A stretch of DNA of 55,096 nucleotides from a virus. Both the position numbers and the translations under genes were made by a program. The DNA lies in IMG/VR virus record IMGVR_UViG_3300029267_003206, positions 1-55,096 of that record. One strand, written 5' to 3'. Below, piece after piece: positions 1,447 through 45,715 of the stretch. Each line of letters opens with the position of its first letter. Within the stretch, counting starts at the first letter, position 1. The notes below the pieces were generated by a model. It worked only from the letters and a program-made list of their open reading frames with translations. It did no database searches and was not told where the DNA came from.

Positions 1447-2038
1447 ATTAAAACCTATTACAGATAAAAAAGAAGAAGAGGATGAGGAGGAAGAAGTCAT
1501 CAAAGCAAAGGAGATCGAAGCAGAAGATGAGTGGTATAAAACTGTGTCAGGTAAAGATGCTAAGATGTTGGAAGAGTTTGTGATGAAAGATTATGATAAA
1601 GATAATAAACCAACGATTAGCATCATAGGTGACATAGTATACATCCGCAATGAGGATCATACAATTAACCTCACTTCCAGATGGTTGAAAGTTTATAAGC
1701 AGATAGCAAAGCTAGATAAACTCCCAGATGCGGTTGTTCCATCTCTGCGACAAGTTCTTATATTGATGATTACTAAACCAGAATGGGCGATGAAAGTAGA
1801 AGACGAAGAAGAAAAAAGAAGGAAACCAACCATCAAACATAACCTGGTTAATGAAACAGAAACAGATTATAAAAAGAAACTAAGAGAAGATAAGGAAATA
1901 AAAAAGAAGATGCTAATGCGGAGACAGACAATTCCTCCAACATCAGAAGATATGGCTAAATTAGCAAAGCAGACTCCTACTAAGTGTGAAAAACAGAAAA
2001 AGCAGAAGAAACAACCTAAGCCACTTCCATTGGCTTAG
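1439..2038 (+). CDS. highly charged protein, unknown function
   Basis: 199 aa with an acidic N-terminus (runs of Glu after residue 10), a better-structured middle with hydrophobic strands and helices (residues about 60-120), and a very basic Lys-rich tail. No catalytic motif. The acidic-core-basic layout is typical of small viral nucleic-acid or chaperone-like proteins, but this is a compositional remark only. It lies directly upstream of the gene pair ending in the AAA+ ATPase and probably shares its transcript. Confidence 0.65.
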   Translation: MNELKPITDKKEEEDEEEEVIKAKEIEAEDEWYKTVSGKDAKMLEEFVMKDYDKDNKPTISIIGDIVYIRNEDHTINLTSRWLKVYKQIAKLDKLPDAVVPSLRQVLILMITKPEWAMKVEDEEEKRRKPTIKHNLVNETETDYKKKLREDKEIKKKMLMRRQTIPPTSEDMAKLAKQTPTKCEKQKKQKKQPKPLPLA

Positions 2039-5771: not shown

Positions 5772-6650
5772 ATGACAAAATGTTTTTACCATATAGATAA
5801 TGATGGGAAGTGTGCAGGTGCGATTGTAAAATCTGTCTATACAGATGCAAAGTGCATCCCTATTGATTATGACATACCTTTCCCTCTGGATAGTATAGAA
5901 CTAAACGAATGGGTATTCATTGTGGATTTTAGCATCGAGCCAGAGAGTATGAAGAAACTGTTGAAAGTTACTTCTCATGTCTGCTGGATAGATCACCATA
6001 TCTCCTCCATCGAGAAGTATGCTGGATTCAAGCAAGAAATTGATGGAATACGGGAAGTAGGTAAATCGGGATGTCTTCTTACCTGGGAATGGTTCTATCC
6101 CCATGAACCACCATCTATAGCTGTTCAACTTATCAATGACTGGGACATTTGGGCTAATAAAATGCAACCTCAGACAGACTGGTTTGGTCTTGGGTTGGGT
6201 ATGTTAGACAATCACCCCAAAAGTAGCATATGGCCTGATCTTCTGCACAACAGAGACCCTCTGCCAGTTGAAAATATATGTGCAGATGGTAAGATTATCA
6301 AGGAGTACCAGGATAAACAAAATGAATCTTTCATGAAAAACTATGGTTATGCTACTGAATTTATGGGTTATACCTGCTTTGTTGCTAACTTACCCAAACC
6401 ATCCAGCAAAGCCTTTACATCAATAGCAGACAAGTATGATGTTTTCATAGGGTATGTTCATAAGGGGGATGTATATGTCTTCTCAATCTACACTGATAAT
6501 CCTGACATTGATGTAAGGAAGATAGCAGAAGCACATAGTGGTGGAGGTCATAAGGGAGCAGCTGGATGGCATAGCCCTACAATCCCGTTCACCCCAATTG
6601 ATGGTGAAGATATAGATTCCAAACTGGAGGAAGCATACAATGTTCAATGA
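5772..6650 (+). CDS. DHH/DHHA1-family phosphoesterase
   Basis: 292 aa. Motifs in order: HIDNDG (residues 7-12), a VD strand (51-52), the DHH signature (74-76) and the C-terminal DHHA1 glycine motif SGGGH (256-260). These residues bind two metal ions and the phosphate in RecJ exonucleases, nanoRNases and cyclic-dinucleotide phosphodiesterases. The length matches short nanoRNase/NrnA-like members rather than full RecJ. Likely roles are degradation of short RNA/DNA oligonucleotides, turnover of cyclic oligonucleotide signals, or end processing in replication; sequence alone does not separate them. Its stop overlaps the HNH gene. Confidence 0.85.
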   Translation: MTKCFYHIDNDGKCAGAIVKSVYTDAKCIPIDYDIPFPLDSIELNEWVFIVDFSIEPESMKKLLKVTSHVCWIDHHISSIEKYAGFKQEIDGIREVGKSGCLLTWEWFYPHEPPSIAVQLINDWDIWANKMQPQTDWFGLGLGMLDNHPKSSIWPDLLHNRDPLPVENICADGKIIKEYQDKQNESFMKNYGYATEFMGYTCFVANLPKPSSKAFTSIADKYDVFIGYVHKGDVYVFSIYTDNPDIDVRKIAEAHSGGGHKGAAGWHSPTIPFTPIDGEDIDSKLEEAYNVQ

Positions 6651-33267: not shown

Positions 33268-36200
33268 TCAATTATTAAGTTGCCTGGGGGTAATACCAGA
33301 TGGGAAAACTTTACAGCTATCTCCCTGGCAGGCTTTTAGAATTTGAGATGATTCAACGGCTGGACTATGACATATAGCAACACCTGTATATGCCATCCAC
33401 ATAGCCATTTGACTGCTGTCTAATTCATGAGCTACCTCTGCTGACGTTTGAAATGTGCCATCTAAGATAGCTTTAATACCATCTTCATCTGTTACAATAC
33501 CTTGAAATTTCGATGCTCCTTTATGCACCTTATTGTCTTCCTTACATGTCCACTCTAAATCATCATCCCATTCTACCTTTGTCATGATTCCTATTCTGCT
33601 TACTTCTTTATTATCATGGAAGTAGTTGATATAAGCCAGATTGGTTCCACGATGCCAAGGTTCCAATTGTGCTTTCTTAACAGATGATCTTGGATATATC
33701 TTCCCTTTAAATCGCCCCTCTCGGAAGAGAAGTCCTTCTACCTCCAAATATCCCTCATTGTTTATGTGTGTCTGAGTGATGCTAAAATCTTCGTGACCTA
33801 CGTCAAAAATCTCCTTCTTTGCTCCCGGAATAATCTTCCAGAAACCAACATCACCTTTCACCCTGAAAACATTTTTCACCCGTTCACCTTCCACCTTAAT
33901 TTCCATATAGTCTCCATCAATATTCTCTATAACAGCGATTCCTTCATCAAGAAGTTCTATCTGAGACAGTAAGGATTTAGACTGATTGAGGGTGTGTCCG
34001 GGAGGCAGATACCCATCAACCTGGGCTAATTTAGGGCTTCTAAGTGCCAACGAAGAGAATGTTTCTCGAAGTAGAGGATTCGATTCACATGTAAATGAGA
34101 ATGTCTGCCCCCCAAACACGAAGTTAAGATGCCATTGTTCTCTATTCTCTGTGCTGATCCCCTTGAAAATCTGATGCTGTAGAGAGAAATAAGAATCATG
34201 TGGGTTCTCAAGATGCTTAGGTAATTCCATCTCTACACCAGGTAATCTTTCATTCAGATCATTTCGGAAAGCAGACCTAATTTCTCGTCTGTTCTTCCCA
34301 GAATCTTTCTTCCAGTATTTATAATAGGAAGGTGTAAAGTTTACAACATGTCGTGGCAGACCCGTATAACCAATTGGAGGCATCCAGCTTTCATTATCTG
34401 CCTGACGAGTTAAGACAAATGGTAATCTGTTGGCTTTATATATATACCAACTGCCATTGTAATTCTTTTCCGAATACATCTTCTTGAGAACTGAACCATG
34501 ATACCAGAATTCTCTATAACCATCCTTAATGGTTAAGCATTCATATTCACCTCTGTCTAAATTTATGACATAAGCATCCCCTACCCACCCTTCTTTATCC
34601 CACCTCTTAAAGTCTCGATGGACAAAAGGTTCTGCTATGAATTTATAAGTTGGATTCTGCAAGTCTTTCTTTAACTCTGGCCAGACCTCTTTTGTGAACA
34701 TCTGCTTTACAGTAGAGAAACCTGTTTTGTTGGTGGAAAGTGTATAACAGGCAGGTTCTGTATATCCATCCATCTTCACACTACCTTTATACAATCGCAT
34801 ACAGGTATCTATTCCTTTTGTCAGTTGGCGGCGTAAGAAAAGAGATACCTTATCACCAGACACATAGGCTTGAAGAAGGAATTTGGCAGTTCCAATCTGA
34901 GGCCATTCAGAATGGTAATCCAGGTTGGTGTATATATCAGAACCTACATCTATAAGTTGAAGGAAGTTACCATCAGTTCTATATTCAACCTTATCTAATC
35001 CTTCATCTTCATTAGTCATCAAGAAGATAAATTCCGCTTCTTGCACTGAATTATCCTTTTTTGGGAAATTAATGTATTTATATGATACTCTGGTAGCCCT
35101 GACATGTGTGAAATACTTTCCAAACATCTCCATCAATTTCTTTTTGGGGAAGAGTTTAGATTCTCGATATGAGAAGAGAACATAGTTAAACTTTGTAGAT
35201 ACTTCTAAAAGCTCATTGATTCTCTGTTCAAATGTTTCCTTCGTCCACTCCCCTCCAAGGTTGAGTCCCTCATATGATCCAAAGAGAGCATGTTCCCAGG
35301 CATTATATTGTTTATAATAAGTCTTCGTGCTTCCTGTCTCAGATATATAAGGCGGATCAAAGTATGCTAAAGATTTAGATGGTAAATTTGATATATGCTT
35401 GAGGAAAGATATAGAATCAGATCGGACAAAATGTGCTTTCCCACCATCCCCACTCACATGACCATTGAATTTCTTAAGGCAGGTGGAAAGCCCCTGCTTT
35501 AAGAGCTTCAGCATTGAGATGCGATCTCTCTTCATCCTTTCCCATACTTTCTTGTGGATGCTATCTCTAAGATACCCAGCATACACCATAGTACCAGCTG
35601 AAGCAAGGAGTGAAGCTTTTGCCAGACTCCTCTTAGGTTCTGGCAATGAATCTGCTCTGCTTCTAAACCCATCCATAAACTTCTTGCAGGCAGTGTCGAA
35701 GTGAATGGCTTTGTCTTTTAAAGTTGTCATATATCCTCTCTGTGGAGGGGATGCAAGAAGCCAGTCAATTTCATCATCACTCAATTGGGTATCTTTATTC
35801 TTTACGATGCTATCATAGATAACCTGACTAATTTTGGAAGTATCCACCCCAACAACATTTAGACCTAACTTCCTCAGTGTGTATGACACTACGCCACAAC
35901 CTGAAAACCCATCCACGATGAATTGGACATCCTTTGGGATCTGTCTGACAATTTGTTCCATCAGTTTTCGTTTGGAACCTATATACGCTATAGGGTATGA
36001 CGTGAAGTCTTCCTGATCTGTTATCTGATAATTGGAATATGGAAAAGGGAAATCCAGGCCAGCCTTCCTCCTCTGCTGAGATATTATAATCGCTTGATGC
36101 ATTTTCTTTGCTTCTGCTTCGGTAGGGAAACATTTTATGATAGTTCCTTCTGGAGCATCTTTTGGGCCACCGGTGTCAGGATGCCCATGAACAACACACC

Positions 36201-37257
36201 ATTTGTCACCACGCTTCTCAACCCGCATGTCTGCCACGTTAACAACCATCCGCCCAACACCAGGTCTATTTATATTTCTCATCTGACTTCCACATTTGGG
36301 ACATGTGTAATCTTCACAATGAACAGGTGATGTCATCTGATACCCACAACTCAGACATTCACAGGTATACTCAATCGATGCAGAAAATTGAGGGTAATCT
36401 GGATTAGTCCTTCGTCTTCCAGGTATAATAGTATCTGGTCTTCCAATTCCAGGTCTTTCTTCTCTTCTCATCTGTCCCCCACATTTAGGGCATTTCAAGT
36501 CTTCACAATGACTTTCGCTTACCATCTGATACCCACATTTGATACATGCACAGGCGATACCAAAATCAATCGTATCTGCGAAGTTCTCATATTCTGAGAA
36601 GAGGTTTTTCTTTTTCAGCTCTGCCAGAACTTTCTCCAAAAATAGTTTCTTCTGGCCAGTGTAGTCTTCCAAGGTCAATGAAATCCCACGCTTTAAAATT
36701 TCTCGTAGAACAATCTGCCCAATACCATTATAATCTTTATCTGGTGATTCTACAGTCTTTTGACATATAATCTTCCAGTCATCCTCAAGTTGTATGTTAT
36801 CAAGAAGACGTGGATCATAATCATCCATAGATGTTACTAACTCGATGGATGGGTGTGGGTCAGAGAAAGACTTGAGGTCAAAAAATTCATCATCTCCCCC
36901 AACCGCATTTATAAACACATTCTGCTTGAAGGATCGGAAACGGAAAACAAGGCCAAAGGCAGGCCACTTATCAAACTCTGACCCTCCAATTTTCTGCTCC
37001 CACTGGCTCAATGTTAGTTTATGCATGTCTGCTAATTCTTCGAACATATACTCATCATCGATGGGCAGGATCTTATAGATATATATGGTCCCAGGAGATG
37101 CTACATGTTGAACATCTTTATAATCTGGATATACGATGAAATCAGTCTGCATAAGTTTATCGAATTCAACGTTATGGCAGATGCGGAGTAACATACCCAA
37201 AGTCTCTTCTTTAACCCCAGCTACTTCCTCAATGGACATCCTAATTGCTCTCATCAT
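33268..37257 (-). CDS. DNA methyltransferase-prohead protease-like fusion with two zinc ribbons
   Basis: 1329 aa, coupled to the portal stop (ATGA). Parts in order: an unknown N-terminal domain (1-230); a zinc ribbon at 236-259 (C236, C238, C241, C251, C256, C259) and a near copy at 299-322; a D12-class adenine methyltransferase with AYIGSKRK (424-431), the SAM-binding DGFSGCGVVS (449-458) and catalytic FDPPYIS (633-639); a large middle region (760-1140) of unknown fold; and a C-terminal domain (about 1150-1310) resembling an HK97-type prohead protease, with H1214 and S1272 (in TSAEV) as possible catalytic residues. The slot between portal and scaffold is where the protease gene normally lies. 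The methyltransferase part may mark viral DNA against host restriction. Fusion with a capsid-maturation enzyme is unusual. Confidence 0.7.
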   Translation of the reverse strand: MMRAIRMSIEEVAGVKEETLGMLLRICHNVEFDKLMQTDFIVYPDYKDVQHVASPGTIYIYKILPIDDEYMFEELADMHKLTLSQWEQKIGGSEFDKWPAFGLVFRFRSFKQNVFINAVGGDDEFFDLKSFSDPHPSIELVTSMDDYDPRLLDNIQLEDDWKIICQKTVESPDKDYNGIGQIVLREILKRGISLTLEDYTGQKKLFLEKVLAELKKKNLFSEYENFADTIDFGIACACIKCGYQMVSESHCEDLKCPKCGGQMRREERPGIGRPDTIIPGRRRTNPDYPQFSASIEYTCECLSCGYQMTSPVHCEDYTCPKCGSQMRNINRPGVGRMVVNVADMRVEKRGDKWCVVHGHPDTGGPKDAPEGTIIKCFPTEAEAKKMHQAIIISQQRRKAGLDFPFPYSNYQITDQEDFTSYPIAYIGSKRKLMEQIVRQIPKDVQFIVDGFSGCGVVSYTLRKLGLNVVGVDTSKISQVIYDSIVKNKDTQLSDDEIDWLLASPPQRGYMTTLKDKAIHFDTACKKFMDGFRSRADSLPEPKRSLAKASLLASAGTMVYAGYLRDSIHKKVWERMKRDRISMLKLLKQGLSTCLKKFNGHVSGDGGKAHFVRSDSISFLKHISNLPSKSLAYFDPPYISETGSTKTYYKQYNAWEHALFGSYEGLNLGGEWTKETFEQRINELLEVSTKFNYVLFSYRESKLFPKKKLMEMFGKYFTHVRATRVSYKYINFPKKDNSVQEAEFIFLMTNEDEGLDKVEYRTDGNFLQLIDVGSDIYTNLDYHSEWPQIGTAKFLLQAYVSGDKVSLFLRRQLTKGIDTCMRLYKGSVKMDGYTEPACYTLSTNKTGFSTVKQMFTKEVWPELKKDLQNPTYKFIAEPFVHRDFKRWDKEGWVGDAYVINLDRGEYECLTIKDGYREFWYHGSVLKKMYSEKNYNGSWYIYKANRLPFVLTRQADNESWMPPIGYTGLPRHVVNFTPSYYKYWKKDSGKNRREIRSAFRNDLNERLPGVEMELPKHLENPHDSYFSLQHQIFKGISTENREQWHLNFVFGGQTFSFTCESNPLLRETFSSLALRSPKLAQVDGYLPPGHTLNQSKSLLSQIELLDEGIAVIENIDGDYMEIKVEGERVKNVFRVKGDVGFWKIIPGAKKEIFDVGHEDFSITQTHINNEGYLEVEGLLFREGRFKGKIYPRSSVKKAQLEPWHRGTNLAYINYFHDNKEVSRIGIMTKVEWDDDLEWTCKEDNKVHKGASKFQGIVTDEDGIKAILDGTFQTSAEVAHELDSSQMAMWMAYTGVAICHSPAVESSQILKACQGDSCKVFPSGITPRQLNN

Positions 37258-38631: not shown

Positions 38632-40248
38632 TTACCATCTCTTTTTAGCTTTTAATCCATAAGCGCTATTATCATCATCATCTACTATCTCTCTATTCCC
38701 AACTGTTTTCTTACGAGAACCACCTGACTTCTTTAGGCTATGTGAATTGTTCTTCTTATCTTCTCTTTCTTCCACTTCTCCAGGTTTACCCATATCTATA
38801 AAACCATCTGCAGCGTCAAGTGTCAAACGATGACTATCAGGGAAGTCTGACTTATGTTGCATCCCTCTTTTATTCTGATGATCCACCCGTATCTTGTTAC
38901 CTACTTTTCTTCTAACCAGGGCACACATCTGTTTCTCAAACAGATCAACTTCGTCTTTCTTGACATCTGGATATGAATACTGTTTGTTCTGAGTCTTAAG
39001 TTTCATATCAGCAAATGATTGATCACGCAGAGTATCAAGTGTGTTAACCCTAACCAGATTCTCAATACCTGGAATCACAGTTCCATCTGCCAACTCAGTG
39101 TCAACTTCCAGGAAATCATTTAACACTCCACCTGGGGGATTATTTTCTGCCCGAAATTCAACGAAATTAAATCTGGAAGCTGCTAACCGAATATCAATGC
39201 TTTGAACAACATAATCATCCCCCCGCCAGTATTCCCAATAGATAATCTGCCTATCTCGTAGACGCATAACTTCCATAACAGTGCAGTCATTTGATTTGGC
39301 AACATCTAAACCACCTACACAGGGTTCCTCGCAAGAATCTAACCAGGGACCAGATTTACATTTTCTTAATGTCTTCTTATCCATAAAGTCTTGTCCCTCT
39401 GTCACATCCCAAACATGGAAAAACTGTGATTGCATAGCAGGGTGGTCAATTCCATATCTCTTGAAGCGACCAAGAACAAAACGCCTATAATCTTGCGTTC
39501 CTGGTTCAGAGAAACATCTCTCTAAGTCAATGATATGGAAGTCAGGATTTGGAGGAAGACCATTTTCCCTTCTTTCCATCTCATCTGTAACTTCATAATA
39601 TACCCTCCCATGTTCCTTTTCCTCATGTGAAGCTGTGAAAATATATACCATCGTCCCATTTCTTGCTGCTAACTGAGGATCGATGCTCTTTATTATCTTC
39701 CCCTCTGTTATAGATTGAGCTTCCTCAAGAACAGCCAGATCTAAGTCAGGACCTTCTATACATTTAGAAGTTGGAGATGCTGTATGTGTCAAGATATTAG
39801 AACCAGTAGAAAGCTTAATCCATTTGGAGTTATTAATGTCTGCATGAACTCCCAGGATTCCCGTATAGTAGAATGACTCTAATCTCTCTTTTACTTTGTC
39901 TGTGAAAAGTTTAGCAGGGTCATCAGATGGAGCATAGATGCCTACATTGAAGCCATTACGCATATGGGGGTAAAGTTCAGAAAAGAAGATTGGTATGATA
40001 ACACCTAATTGGGTAACTGTTTCTGCCAGCCCCTGGGACTTCCCAGACTGGCGGGGCATCATAATATAAATTACCTTCCCCTGTCTAAGTAAGACGCTTC
40101 TTATAACCTCCCACATCACTTCTACCTGGTAGCTACGTGGGATGAGTCCTGATACAGCCAGAGCCACACGCTTGAAAAGAGAAGGTGTAAATTCCTTCAT
40201 TTTGTAATGAGCAGCAAGTTCTCTGGCAACAACCATATCTGTCTTCAA
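38632..40248 (-). CDS. terL: terminase large subunit
   Basis: 538 aa. Walker A MPRQSGKSQ (64-72), Walker B DLAVLEEAQ (170-178, the EE acting in hydrolysis), coupling motif near FTASHEE (204-210), and an RNase-H-like nuclease domain beginning GGLDVAKSND (312-321, D315 catalytic) with a later acidic residue in FVEFRAENN and a C-terminal DAADGF. Pumps DNA into the capsid and cuts it. Its start overlaps the upstream gene by 4 nt. Confidence 0.93.
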   Translation of the reverse strand: MKTDMVVARELAAHYKMKEFTPSLFKRVALAVSGLIPRSYQVEVMWEVIRSVLLRQGKVIYIMMPRQSGKSQGLAETVTQLGVIIPIFFSELYPHMRNGFNVGIYAPSDDPAKLFTDKVKERLESFYYTGILGVHADINNSKWIKLSTGSNILTHTASPTSKCIEGPDLDLAVLEEAQSITEGKIIKSIDPQLAARNGTMVYIFTASHEEKEHGRVYYEVTDEMERRENGLPPNPDFHIIDLERCFSEPGTQDYRRFVLGRFKRYGIDHPAMQSQFFHVWDVTEGQDFMDKKTLRKCKSGPWLDSCEEPCVGGLDVAKSNDCTVMEVMRLRDRQIIYWEYWRGDDYVVQSIDIRLAASRFNFVEFRAENNPPGGVLNDFLEVDTELADGTVIPGIENLVRVNTLDTLRDQSFADMKLKTQNKQYSYPDVKKDEVDLFEKQMCALVRRKVGNKIRVDHQNKRGMQHKSDFPDSHRLTLDAADGFIDMGKPGEVEEREDKKNNSHSLKKSGGSRKKTVGNREIVDDDDNSAYGLKAKKRW

Positions 40249-41285
40249 GTTGGTCCCCTCCCCTTTCTGCCTTTTGTGCTACTCTTCTCAACCAAGGCAT
40301 CAGAGGTGGGGGAGGATGTTTGAGAATCAGGAGTCCAGGAGAGGTCATATCTTTTTGCCATCTCCTCTTTTTTCTGCTCGAACTCATCCTTTGCTTTTTC
40401 TAAAGCAAGCATATCATTGTTGAGTTCTGTGTCAGCTATCCGTATCTCTAATTCCTTCTCATCCACAGCATCCGAATCCTTGAGATATGATAAATCTAAA
40501 TCTGGTTCAGGGGCTATCCCTGGATGAGATTTAGCCATTCCCTCAGTTGGAACTGAGATATACAGAGGTGACAGTTCATCATCTGACAGGGATTTCACAT
40601 TTGCATCCTGCCTCATTGATTTCCGTTTGACTCCTCTGCCGAAGACTTTATCAAGTGCTTTCAGACGTAATTTCATTATTTCCATATCTTGTCTGTCAGC
40701 CTGAGTCCACCCTTTGAAGGTGGCGAATATCTTAAGATGCTCCATAAACTCATGCTGCCAAAGTTTTAAGTCTTTGGACATCTGCATGAAATCTTTTCTA
40801 TCAACCGCATTGTTTAAATTGAAAGATGGTAGAATACGAGACAGACGTTCAACTATCTTCTTATCCCGGTGGAGGATGTCCCGCATCTCTTCCTCTATCT
40901 TATCCTTCTGCTTCATCTGGGACTTCTCAATGTTGAGTTCAAATACACATATTCCCCATTTATTCTTCCCTTCAGGGCAAGTCCCACGTGCCATACAATT
41001 CGCACATCTGAGAATCTCTGTGTTCAGATATGGTCCCAGTTTTTTCTCACAGGCAGAACAGAAACCAGATGGCCGATTGGTGACATTTTTACAGGTATCA
41101 TGAGCACATTTACGCATCTCATGCTTCACATCATCCAAGGAGGGATCAATCTTCCCCTTCAAGATGCCTTTCTCCTTTAACCTATCTCTCAGTTTCCCAA
41201 TCCCATCTGCTTCAACCTTATCTTCCTGGGTGCGGGGATTATCAGGCATCTCTGATTCTGTCTGAAATTCTTCACCATTAGGCAT
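40245..41285 (-). CDS. zinc-finger protein in the terminase small-subunit position
   Basis: 346 aa, first gene of the virion arm. Two zinc modules: C60/C65/C76/C79 and C94/C97/C103/C113. A helical middle (130-230) and a long C-terminal coiled coil (280-330) follow. Small terminase subunits bind DNA and form rings via helices, which suits the layout, although zinc modules are not usual. Assignment is by position next to TerL. Confidence 0.55.
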   Translation of the reverse strand: MPNGEEFQTESEMPDNPRTQEDKVEADGIGKLRDRLKEKGILKGKIDPSLDDVKHEMRKCAHDTCKNVTNRPSGFCSACEKKLGPYLNTEILRCANCMARGTCPEGKNKWGICVFELNIEKSQMKQKDKIEEEMRDILHRDKKIVERLSRILPSFNLNNAVDRKDFMQMSKDLKLWQHEFMEHLKIFATFKGWTQADRQDMEIMKLRLKALDKVFGRGVKRKSMRQDANVKSLSDDELSPLYISVPTEGMAKSHPGIAPEPDLDLSYLKDSDAVDEKELEIRIADTELNNDMLALEKAKDEFEQKKEEMAKRYDLSWTPDSQTSSPTSDALVEKSSTKGRKGRGPT

Positions 41286-41322
41286 TGTTTGAACTATATC
41301 CTTGCCCCTATATATACATATT

Positions 41323-41330
41323 GATATAAG
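41323..41330 (-). promoter_or_regulatory. archaeal TATA promoter for the virion arm
   Basis: CTTATATC on the minus strand places the start near 41297, about 12 nt before the ATG at 41285, so the leader is short. A second possible TATA (TATATATAGG, about 41310) lies too close. Consistent with the leftward transcript. Confidence 0.5.
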
Positions 41331-41389
41331 TCTTTGAAGAATAGTATATGGTGTAGCAGAGGGCGGATCAGGGGGCTATTTTGGGGCAC

Positions 41390-41425
41390 AAAGGTATATA
41401 GTTAGTTATATGTCTGTTTCCTTTT
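41390..41425 (+). promoter_or_regulatory. 36-nt promoter-like element, copy C
   Basis: AAAGGTATAT at the left and TGTTTCCTTTT at the right, same 36-nt length as the copies at 3889 and 44002. With copy D (41644-41679, opposite strand) it forms a head-facing inverted pair flanking 218 bp that contains the palindrome at 41569. Confidence 0.6.
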
Positions 41426-41568
41426 GACCTTCTTAGATACCTCAGCCCCCCTATGTAGTATATATAGTTTTCCCTATATTCCTTCAAATTGGGTCCGATT
41501 TGATTTTTCTCTGGCAGATTGTAGTATTCTTAGAGAGGAATATAAGGTGTTTCAGCATATTCACGTAG

Positions 41569-41583
41569 ATTAACGCCGTTAAT
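41569..41583. repeat. 15-bp perfect palindrome
   Basis: ATTAACG-C-CGTTAAT. It lies midway between promoter-like copies C and D in the divergent control region. Size and symmetry suit a dimeric regulator or replication initiator site. Confidence 0.6.
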
Positions 41584-41643
41584 ATAGATAAGTATATATA
41601 GAAGGAGAGAGATGAAGAGGGGCCTTACGCATCTGAAACAAGG

Positions 41644-41679
41644 AAAAGGAAACAGATGGTTATACGGTTATATACCTTT
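41644..41679 (-). promoter_or_regulatory. 36-nt promoter-like element, copy D
   Basis: On the minus strand, begins AAAGGTATAT and ends TGTTTCCTTTT with the same 36-nt length. It overlaps the last codons of the small minus-strand frame at 41660-41872, which weakens either the gene or the element call. Confidence 0.6.
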
Positions 41680-41872
41680 GTGCCCTATCTAAACTTTTCC
41701 GATCCATCTGCTCCGAAATTTTTTCCCATTTCTGCTTATTTACGTATCTGTTCTGATAGAAAGTAAACCCAGAATCCTTTGATTTTGCGAGTGTATACAG
41801 GTTGATATATAATAAAGGTGTATGCGTAACATTATCTATTCGTTTACTTAACTCTGCTAACTCTGTAAACAT
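41660..41872 (-). CDS. possible 70-aa helical protein in the control region
   Basis: 70 aa from ATG 41872 with GTGAGG just upstream; a GTG at 41878 is an alternative. Sequence is amphipathic and looks protein-like, but the frame overlaps the 22-bp repeat and element D, so constraint may come from DNA sites rather than from coding. If real, it could be a regulator of the divergent promoters. Confidence 0.4.
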   Translation of the reverse strand: MFTELAELSKRIDNVTHTPLLYINLYTLAKSKDSGFTFYQNRYVNKQKWEKISEQMDRKSLDRAQRYITV

Positions 41873-41901
41873 CCTCACGTAACTCTATTTACTCTGTTAA
41901 C
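41849..41901. repeat. pair of 22-bp direct repeats
   Basis: Two imperfect direct copies (41849-41870 and 41880-41901), each with TAACTCT, then ACTCTGT and AAC at fixed spacing, offset by 31 bp (about three helix turns). Iteron-like, beside the 17-bp tandem repeats; likely protein-binding sites in an origin or control region. Confidence 0.65.
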
Positions 41902-41947
41902 TACTATACACCATACAATACTGTAGAGTCTACAATACTTAGTAATA

Positions 41948-41998
41948 CTAAGTGGTTAGCATCTCTAAGGCATTAGCATACCTAAGAGGTTAGCATAA
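41948..41998. repeat. three tandem 17-bp repeats (iteron-like)
   Basis: Three contiguous 17-bp units, each starting CTAAG and containing TTAGCAT at the same place. They are preceded by the short palindrome CTTAGTAATACTAAG. Tandem iterons next to an AT-rich divergent region are typical of replication origins. The initiator is unknown; the AAA+ ATPase or RHH protein are candidates. Confidence 0.7.
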
Positions 41999-42052
41999 CC
42001 AAATTTGTCATACTCATTACAAAAATATGGTCAATTCCACTTGACCACAACA

Positions 42053-42060
42053 TTTATATA
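42053..42060 (+). promoter_or_regulatory. strong TATA promoter of the structured RNA
   Basis: TTTATATA, same core as the promoters at 43200 and 30755. Expected start about 26 nt downstream, near 42082, which coincides with the first base of the GC-rich folded RNA. Confidence 0.7.
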
Positions 42061-42081
42061 CTTAAAACCCCTACTCATATT

Positions 42082-42475
42082 GCCGGTGGCCCATCCGGGC
42101 GGGCGGGCTTCGAGCCTTCCCCCGGAACCCACCTAAGGCCAGACGAAAGTCTCAGCAGAGAAGTCCAAGGCGGACTAAAGCCAAAACCTGAACGGCATAC
42201 CGAAGGTGTGAGAGTTCGAAGGTGCTAAGTGCTAACAAGGCATCTTTTAACCGTAGCATCCAATCGTTCCAGTATGCCAGATGGAGGGAAGCAACCCCAT
42301 TGTAGCGGATGGGTTTACCTTACGCAAGATGTCAGAGGTGGCATAATAAGAATACCTAAGCTCAGCGACAGCAGATATATTGCTCTGTCTGCCAAAGTTG
42401 TTCCTTTCGGGGGAAGTGCTCTGTAATTGAGCATACAATTGAATGGGCATTTCCCCCATTTTTTTCTATTCAACA
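42082..42475 (+). ncRNA. GC-rich structured noncoding RNA, about 390 nt, unknown class
   Basis: The segment is clearly richer in GC than its surroundings at its 5' end and has no convincing gene. Helices visible by eye: GCC/GGTGG (42082-42089) with CCACC/GGC (42129-42139); CCGGG with CCCGG enclosing a TTCGA loop; AGAC-GAAA-GTCT (42141-42152, GNRA loop); AGTCC/GGACT (42162-42176) whose loop GGC can pair with GCC at 42180-42182 (pseudoknot); CATACC/GGTGTG (42196-42210); GACAGCA/TGCTCTGTC (42367-42389). It starts where the TATA box predicts and ends in a hairpin plus T7. I do not recognise RNase P, SRP RNA, group I or group II intron motifs. Possible roles: replication primer or regulator, packaging RNA, anti-defence RNA. 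Confidence 0.7.
42442..42465 (+). terminator. hairpin-T terminator of the structured RNA
   Basis: AATGGG (42442-42447) pairs with CCCATT (42455-42460), followed by a T run ending at 42465. It closes the structured RNA before the next gene cluster. Confidence 0.65.
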
Positions 42476-42484
42476 TTAACAGGC

Positions 42485-42530
42485 AGATTCAGGCCGGTGC
42501 ATTACACTTGTAAGTCCTGATTCTGTCTGG
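42485..42530 (+). promoter_or_regulatory. stem-loop leader upstream of the 51-aa gene
   Basis: CAGATTCAGG pairs with CCTGATTCTG across one T-T mismatch, leaving an inner hairpin of CACC/GTG type. AAAGGAGG and the ATG at 42551 follow at once. Could expose or hide the ribosome-binding site. Confidence 0.45.
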
Positions 42531-45618: not shown

Positions 45619-45688
45619 AGCCGGATGGTATAATGGCAACGCATCCCCATTGGTGGGGAAGCTGATGGTTCAAATCCATCTCTGGCTA
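45619..45688 (+). tRNA. tRNA-like gene, Gln- or Pro-like, abnormal anticodon loop
   Basis: 70 nt. Acceptor AGCCGGA/TCTGGCT (7 bp with one G-T), T arm GATGG-TTCAAAT-CCATC, and D-loop sequence AATGGCA are normal. The anticodon stem TCCCC/GGGGA is perfect but encloses only six bases (ATTGGT). Forcing a 7-base loop gives either UUG (Gln) with A33, or UGG (Pro) with a stem mismatch. The D stem is weak. A1-U72 is a Gln trait in archaea (family knowledge). No CCA encoded. May be a degenerate tRNA or a tRNA mimic. Confidence 0.65.
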
Positions 45689-45715
45689 CTATAAATAAAA
45701 TGGAGGCAAAACAAT

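Follow-up and report, generated by a model that had tools for sequence, protein, structure and literature searches.

The window, which is the whole 55,096-base stretch of DNA analyzed here and corresponds to one IMG/VR record of a tailed virus, very probably includes a real structured RNA gene of a new class, located between the two divergent gene arms. Two homologues of the RNA, L003 and L004, were found in a second virus species. We favor, with a probability of about 0.45, the reading that this is a self-contained gene extending from promoter to terminator, in which constant ends carry a core that would act as a specificity module, and that the RNA has a role in conflict. The features of the region are as follows.

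38632-41285, terminase genes; the RNA lies outside them and is oriented away from them
41286-42530, region between the divergent arms, which holds the RNA gene
41939-41996, palindrome-like repeat TTAG(C/T)A(T/A)NNCTAAG, three copies with 17-bp spacing (three also in L004, with the same spacing)
42029-42046, palindrome GGTCAA-TTCCAC-TTGACC, a probable operator upstream of the TATA box (single match in the window)
42053-42060, plus strand, archaeal-type TATA box TTTATATA
42080-42465, plus strand, the whole structured RNA gene, about 385 nt, defined by folding, homologues and covariation
42082-42139, plus strand, P1, 5' hairpin GCC-GGTGG ... CCACC-TAA-GGC with a variable apical part (covariation)
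42141-42152, plus strand, P2, hairpin AGAC-GAAA-GTCT; stem invariant, loop GATA in the relatives
42163-42175, plus strand, P3, hairpin GTCC-AAGGC-GGAC (GGCC/GGCC in L003 and L004), first element of the putatively exchangeable core
42194-42278, plus strand, P4a/P4b/P5 arm with inner P6 (covariation, independent folds)
42293-42315, plus strand, P7, hairpin AACCC(C)AT ... ATGGGTT, replaced in the relatives
42320-42327, plus strand, invariant box TTACGCAA, identical in all three homologues
42328-42370, plus strand, P8 region, an optional domain of 43 nt in the window and about 120 nt in L003 and L004
42371-42392, plus strand, P9, GCAGATA-TATTGCTC-TGTCTGC, conserved 3' scaffold
42409-42465, plus strand, terminator read from the sequence, a GGGGG ... 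CCCCC hairpin followed by T7; L004 is arranged alike

Source virus and limits of the RNA gene

The genes for an HK97-type capsid protein and the large terminase, together with portal-like and tail-like genes, are located on the minus strand to the left of 41.3 kb, and early genes are found on the plus strand to the right of the divergent region. Pfam and PHROGs scans of the window proteins detected capsid, terminase and methyltransferase and no replication protein. The host is likely archaeal because TATA-like boxes precede several gene starts in a survey of the window, sigma-70-like sites near the RNA are at shuffle level, and the capsid protein shows a weak match to an Altiarchaeum virus. 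A 1329-amino acid protein of the structural operon (33268-37257, minus strand) combines zinc-ribbon-like CxxC repeats with a methyltransferase domain of the D12 adenine type at residues about 425-656. A 292-amino acid protein (5772-6650, plus strand) resembles the DHH phosphoesterases of jumbo phages.

The usual archaeal spacing predicts transcription to start near 42080, about 27 nt after the start of the TATA box, and the conserved helices begin at 42082, as a previous sequence-only reading had proposed in placing the start at about 42082 where the fold begins. The position of the box relative to the RNA is the same in L004, and both promoter and terminator are kept in the two virus species. 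The segment 42082-42465 has a minimum free energy of −139.1, compared with −116.7±5.3 for shuffled sequences (z −4.2; none of 100 shuffles was as good), and the reverse strand of the region folds with a z of only −2.0. For the RNA strand of the homologues, z is −4.3 for the L004 RNA and only −1.8 for full-length L003. The sequence-only reading had also described a fold of several helices, a hairpin followed by a run of T at the 3' end, and the lack of a convincing gene; all three agree with the present results, since the ordered helices are common to the three homologues, the hairpin and T7 are found at 42409-42465, and no reading frame common to the window, L003 and L004 RNAs was found. Two finer details did not hold: the GAAA tetraloop is not conserved, the loop being GAUA in the relatives and hence not a GNRA loop, and the candidate pseudoknot was not confirmed. 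It is hardly credible that the locus is a GC-rich inverted-repeat region or a DNA structure that folds by chance and yields no RNA. The homologues are few and the start is GC-rich, but folding differs by strand, a promoter and a terminator are present, and the compensatory changes described below include G-U pairs.

The RNA class is very probably new. Scans with the Rfam 15 covariance models, the Infernal-type check suggested by the sequence-only reading, matched no family, either at the gathering threshold or, for all three homologues, with permissive settings; the best E-values ranged from 0.4 to 7.5 and all scores were far below gathering. This result and the homologues with compensatory changes uphold its description as a structured noncoding RNA of no recognized class. 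We relied on the permissive scans because these detected a tRNA at 45619 that had escaped the gathering-threshold scan. The size and multi-helix layout fit, in general terms, several known classes, and the RNA could be a very diverged RNase P RNA, SRP RNA, group I intron or guide of an RNA-guided nuclease. This is very improbable, as none of the three homologues had a near-significant Rfam match with permissive filters, and no TnpB/IscB-type nuclease was found among the Pfam matches of the scanned proteins, which included the larger genes around the RNA and some of the small ORFs. Group I intron and RNase P RNA were dropped as candidates, with no Rfam signal.

The tRNA-like gene (45619-45689, plus strand) scored 41 bits with the Rfam tRNA model, above gathering. 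Its anticodon loop is apparently shortened (CCCC-ATTGGT-GGGG, 6 nt) and ARAGORN names no anticodon. The L004 record includes a normal tRNA-Gln(UUG) at 1541-1614 (minus strand), likewise among early genes.

Homologues, conserved fold and core replacement

Terminase and portal alignment searches covering 2.9 million viral contigs identified five virus records in all, L002 to L006. The first three represent one species, with a terminase 66% identical to that of the window at the amino acid level, and the L005 and L006 terminase is 59% identical. The RNA is complete in L004 (5284-5761, minus strand) and truncated in L003 (1-411, minus strand), and L002 breaks off just upstream of it. A covariance-model search detected no RNA in the L005 and L006 records, in which an operator and TATA box as in the window run straight into an ORF. 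The RNA would thus be lineage-specific, being absent from these two records; one lineage appears to have acquired the gene, or to have lost it, in the interval from promoter to operon. At L005 7102-7161 (minus strand), where operator and TATA box are like those of the RNA, the ORF begins within a few tens of bases.

There was no match in a terminase alignment search of genome contigs, in a search with early-gene alignment A3, or with covariance model R1 on unrelated loci, and the operator pattern returned the records already known and nothing further. Collection-wide matches to the conserved 3' box (L007, L008) were coding and unrelated, those to the core pattern AGCATCCAATCGTTCCAG (L009, L010) were due to chance, with no genome contig matched, and those to the P2 pattern (L013-L015) were coding, chance matches.

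In the manual alignment the same ordered elements, P1, P2, P3, the P4a-P4b-P5 arm, P7 and the invariant box, are present in the window, L003 and L004. The P1 stem GGTGG/CCACC of the window becomes CTGGT/ACCAG in L003 and L004, and the counterpart of P7 is ATCATACT/AGTATGAT in L003 and CACCGA/TCGGTG in L004. The GCAA of the invariant box may pair with UUGC at 42080-42083, closing the core (4 bp, invariant and without covariation signal).

The P4a-P4b-P5 arm is the strongest case for a conserved fold. Its sequence is GGCATAC-CGA-A-GGTGT ... GCATC-CAA-TCG-TTCCA-GTATGCC in the window and AACCGC-ATA-A-GATGC ... GCATC-CTC-TAT-ATCCA-GCGGTT in L004, so that nearly all P4 pairs are altered on both sides between the two. 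Ab initio unconstrained folds of the window and L004 cores have one signature in common, consisting of a 7-8 bp arm, a 5-nt [A/U]UCCA bulge (window 42267-42271), 3 bp, a 1x3 loop and 5-6 bp, which was found in none of 3000 shuffled L004 cores. The descriptor alone was found in 5 of 2000 shuffles and, when combined with P7, in none of 2000. When a covariance model was built from the window and L003 alone, its score for the L004 core was 36.6 bits (E 1e-7), and that of a sequence-only model was 16.3 bits.

The aligned homologous loci from related viral contigs, another comparison put forward by the sequence-only reading, do contain compensatory changes. Double changes occur in 11 of 30 pairs in the model-fitted alignment, compared with 3.5±1.4 in shuffled versions (0 of 500) and at most 5 in slid versions, and 18 of 48 are compensatory in the manual alignment, figures that come from three sequences of two virus species, with L003 truncated and the shared-fold alignment partly fitted to structure. 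Manual and model-based alignments were used in place of MAFFT/RNAalifold; MAFFT misaligned the L004 core. The unconstrained minimum free energy of L003 favors a different fold (−50.3 kcal/mol); enforcing the shared fold, which the L003 sequence is able to form, gives −42.4 kcal/mol.

L003 and L004 are 99.6% identical across 4113 bp, and identity is 100% in the 500 bp upstream of the RNA, in P1-P2, where the conserved 5' scaffold ends at about P2, and from P9 onward. Identity is 61% in the P8 region and 56% in the core, compared with 49% for shuffled or random sequences. The window, which belongs to a different species, has a core 70% identical to that of L003 and 56% identical to that of L004; its P1-P2 region is 53% identical to both and the 62 nt from the start of P9 are 84% identical. 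On these comparisons the ends of the RNA (P1-P2 and P9-terminator) are invariant or evolve slowly, and the core (P3-P8) is exchangeable, its sequence having been swapped wholesale between viruses that are nearly identical elsewhere, with the architecture kept. The simplest reading is that core alleles were exchanged between viruses or retained across species, with the ends staying with the backbone. A fold that outlives replacement of the core is direct evidence of selection on shape.

Could the L003 core be an assembly artefact joining two viruses, the RNA being real and not modular? The L003 contig is short (4460 bp) and carries the RNA at one end, and a single pair of alleles was observed. 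We consider such an artefact improbable, as it needs two joins within about 350 nt, exactly at both core edges, and the L003 core resembles that of the window, from a different species. Besides, L004 alone shows the kept fold with replaced sequence relative to the window.

Possible roles and related RNAs

In the proposed mechanism the RNA would be the first transcript that the host archaeal polymerase makes from the rightward arm, and it would be released at the T-tract and act in trans. Its ends would give stability and bind a constant partner, viral or host, and the folded core would be the specificity module, whose partner would differ between hosts or co-infecting viruses, with recombination and diversifying selection favoring alternative cores. 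Within one species the core differs where the rest of the genome is constant, which would point to a partner that also varies, such as host defence components or co-infecting viruses, and less to the packaging or replication proteins of the virus itself. The most likely role would be in conflict: the RNA could inhibit, or serve as a decoy for, a host factor that acts in defence or binds RNA, or it could set superinfection immunity. Of the three roles suggested by the sequence-only reading, namely replication start, packaging and host defence evasion, the last (or superinfection immunity) seems to agree best with the core mosaic, and a housekeeping function in either of the first two agrees less well. 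The mosaic is the one pattern that points to conflict, and the diversification could stem from another cause. More tentatively, cores that are hypervariable in sequence and isomorphic in structure may be shared across virus species as alleles on constant ends, their diversity kept by host-defence or superinfection selection. If so, this would be an RNA counterpart of the variable anti-defence or immunity proteins of archaeal viruses. Given the exchange of cores between near-identical viruses, the RNA is a candidate for a weapon or an identity tag at the RNA level. As a short, self-contained unit, known with two natural core alleles on the same backbone, it lends itself to testing.

Alternatively, the RNA could be a long cis-acting 5' leader whose attenuator would govern read-through into the operon to its right (ORFs 42551, 42938 onward). 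Some read-through is likely for the first downstream ORFs because the T-tract is followed by the next ORF after about 85 nt and no box before 43200 was detected in the TATA survey; moreover, a like promoter feeds the operon directly in L005. We regard a leader as rather unlikely, because the ORF directly downstream (42551) has no counterpart in L004, where the RNA and its own terminator are conserved, and replacement of the core is unusual for a ligand-binding leader. The conserved unit is thus promoter, RNA and terminator, and for this reason a trans-acting RNA is favored over a gene-specific leader.

P4 CI RNA, P1 c4 RNA and plasmid RNA I determine immunity or incompatibility by pairing with a target on the virus or plasmid. 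The RNA described here offers an analogy in its way of working, since it too is short, is located at a control region and has variable parts specific to the type. It differs in that a search of the window and L004 for a base-pairing target was negative, the longest complementary matches being 12 nt in the window and 13 nt in the L004 record.

A literature search returned no description of such a structured RNA gene for tailed viruses of archaea. By sequence and position, it does not belong to the cabRNA, pRNA or ROOL/GOLLD classes. The cabRNA of staphylococcal phages is a structured RNA of about 400 nt at the terminase genes, within the terS-terL coding region, which is sensed by CBASS and activates the host cyclase (PMC10686824). 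The likeness lies in a structured viral RNA of about 400 nt near terminase genes; here, in contrast, the RNA is intergenic, has its own promoter and terminator, is free of coding constraint, and lies outside the terminase genes and points away from them (42080-42465 vs 38632-41285), with no overlap with a terS-terL coding sequence. ROOL and GOLLD are large, ornate structured noncoding RNAs of bacteria and phages, some of them phage-carried, whose function is unclear (PMC12286853). Unlike these, our RNA is smaller and has an archaeal-type promoter, none of their helices was recognized, and neither gathering nor permissive scans gave a ROOL, GOLLD or OLE match in Rfam.

The control region upstream of the RNA

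An RNA for replication start or DNA packaging, similar to pRNA, could also be expected at a control region between structural and early arms. The RNA adjoins the terminase operon, the 17-bp-spaced repeats and the minimum of the cumulative GC skew (about 42 kb), and phi29-like prohead RNAs are reported to keep their structure while their sequence varies widely (PMC12670572), as is the case here. However, this RNA is larger than phi29-type pRNA, has different helices, matches no phage pRNA in Rfam, and is absent from the L005 and L006 records despite a homologous terminase and the same operator. The partners in replication or packaging would be virus-encoded, and L003 and L004 hardly differ in these as far as they were compared, which leaves core replacement unexplained; a pRNA offers no reason for core exchange within a species. 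We therefore judge this role unlikely.

The sequence-only reading had placed the RNA next to iterons and beside a putative origin. Three repeats do exist and are conserved in L004. The skew minimum is confounded by the switch of gene direction at the same point, and no initiator gene was recognized among the window proteins with Pfam or PHROGs. An origin beside the RNA is a guess with weak support, and the 17-bp-spaced repeats could equally well be regulator sites for the promoter. In the L004 record, three GATATATCAGA-type repeats that are absent from the window are found between the 17-bp-spaced repeats and the RNA promoter (about 5850-5900, minus strand).

The operator palindrome is conserved in L004, and in L005 it precedes a protein-coding operon. 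Together with an adjacent T-run (42026-42049, minus strand) it resembles the hairpin of an intrinsic terminator when read on that strand, and palindrome and T-run are kept in both L004 and L005; this element could end a leftward transcript, instead of or besides binding a regulator. The same intergenic region includes a perfect 17-nt inverted repeat, GGGCACAAAGGTATATA, at 41384-41400 and 41669-41685, with its arms 268 nt apart.
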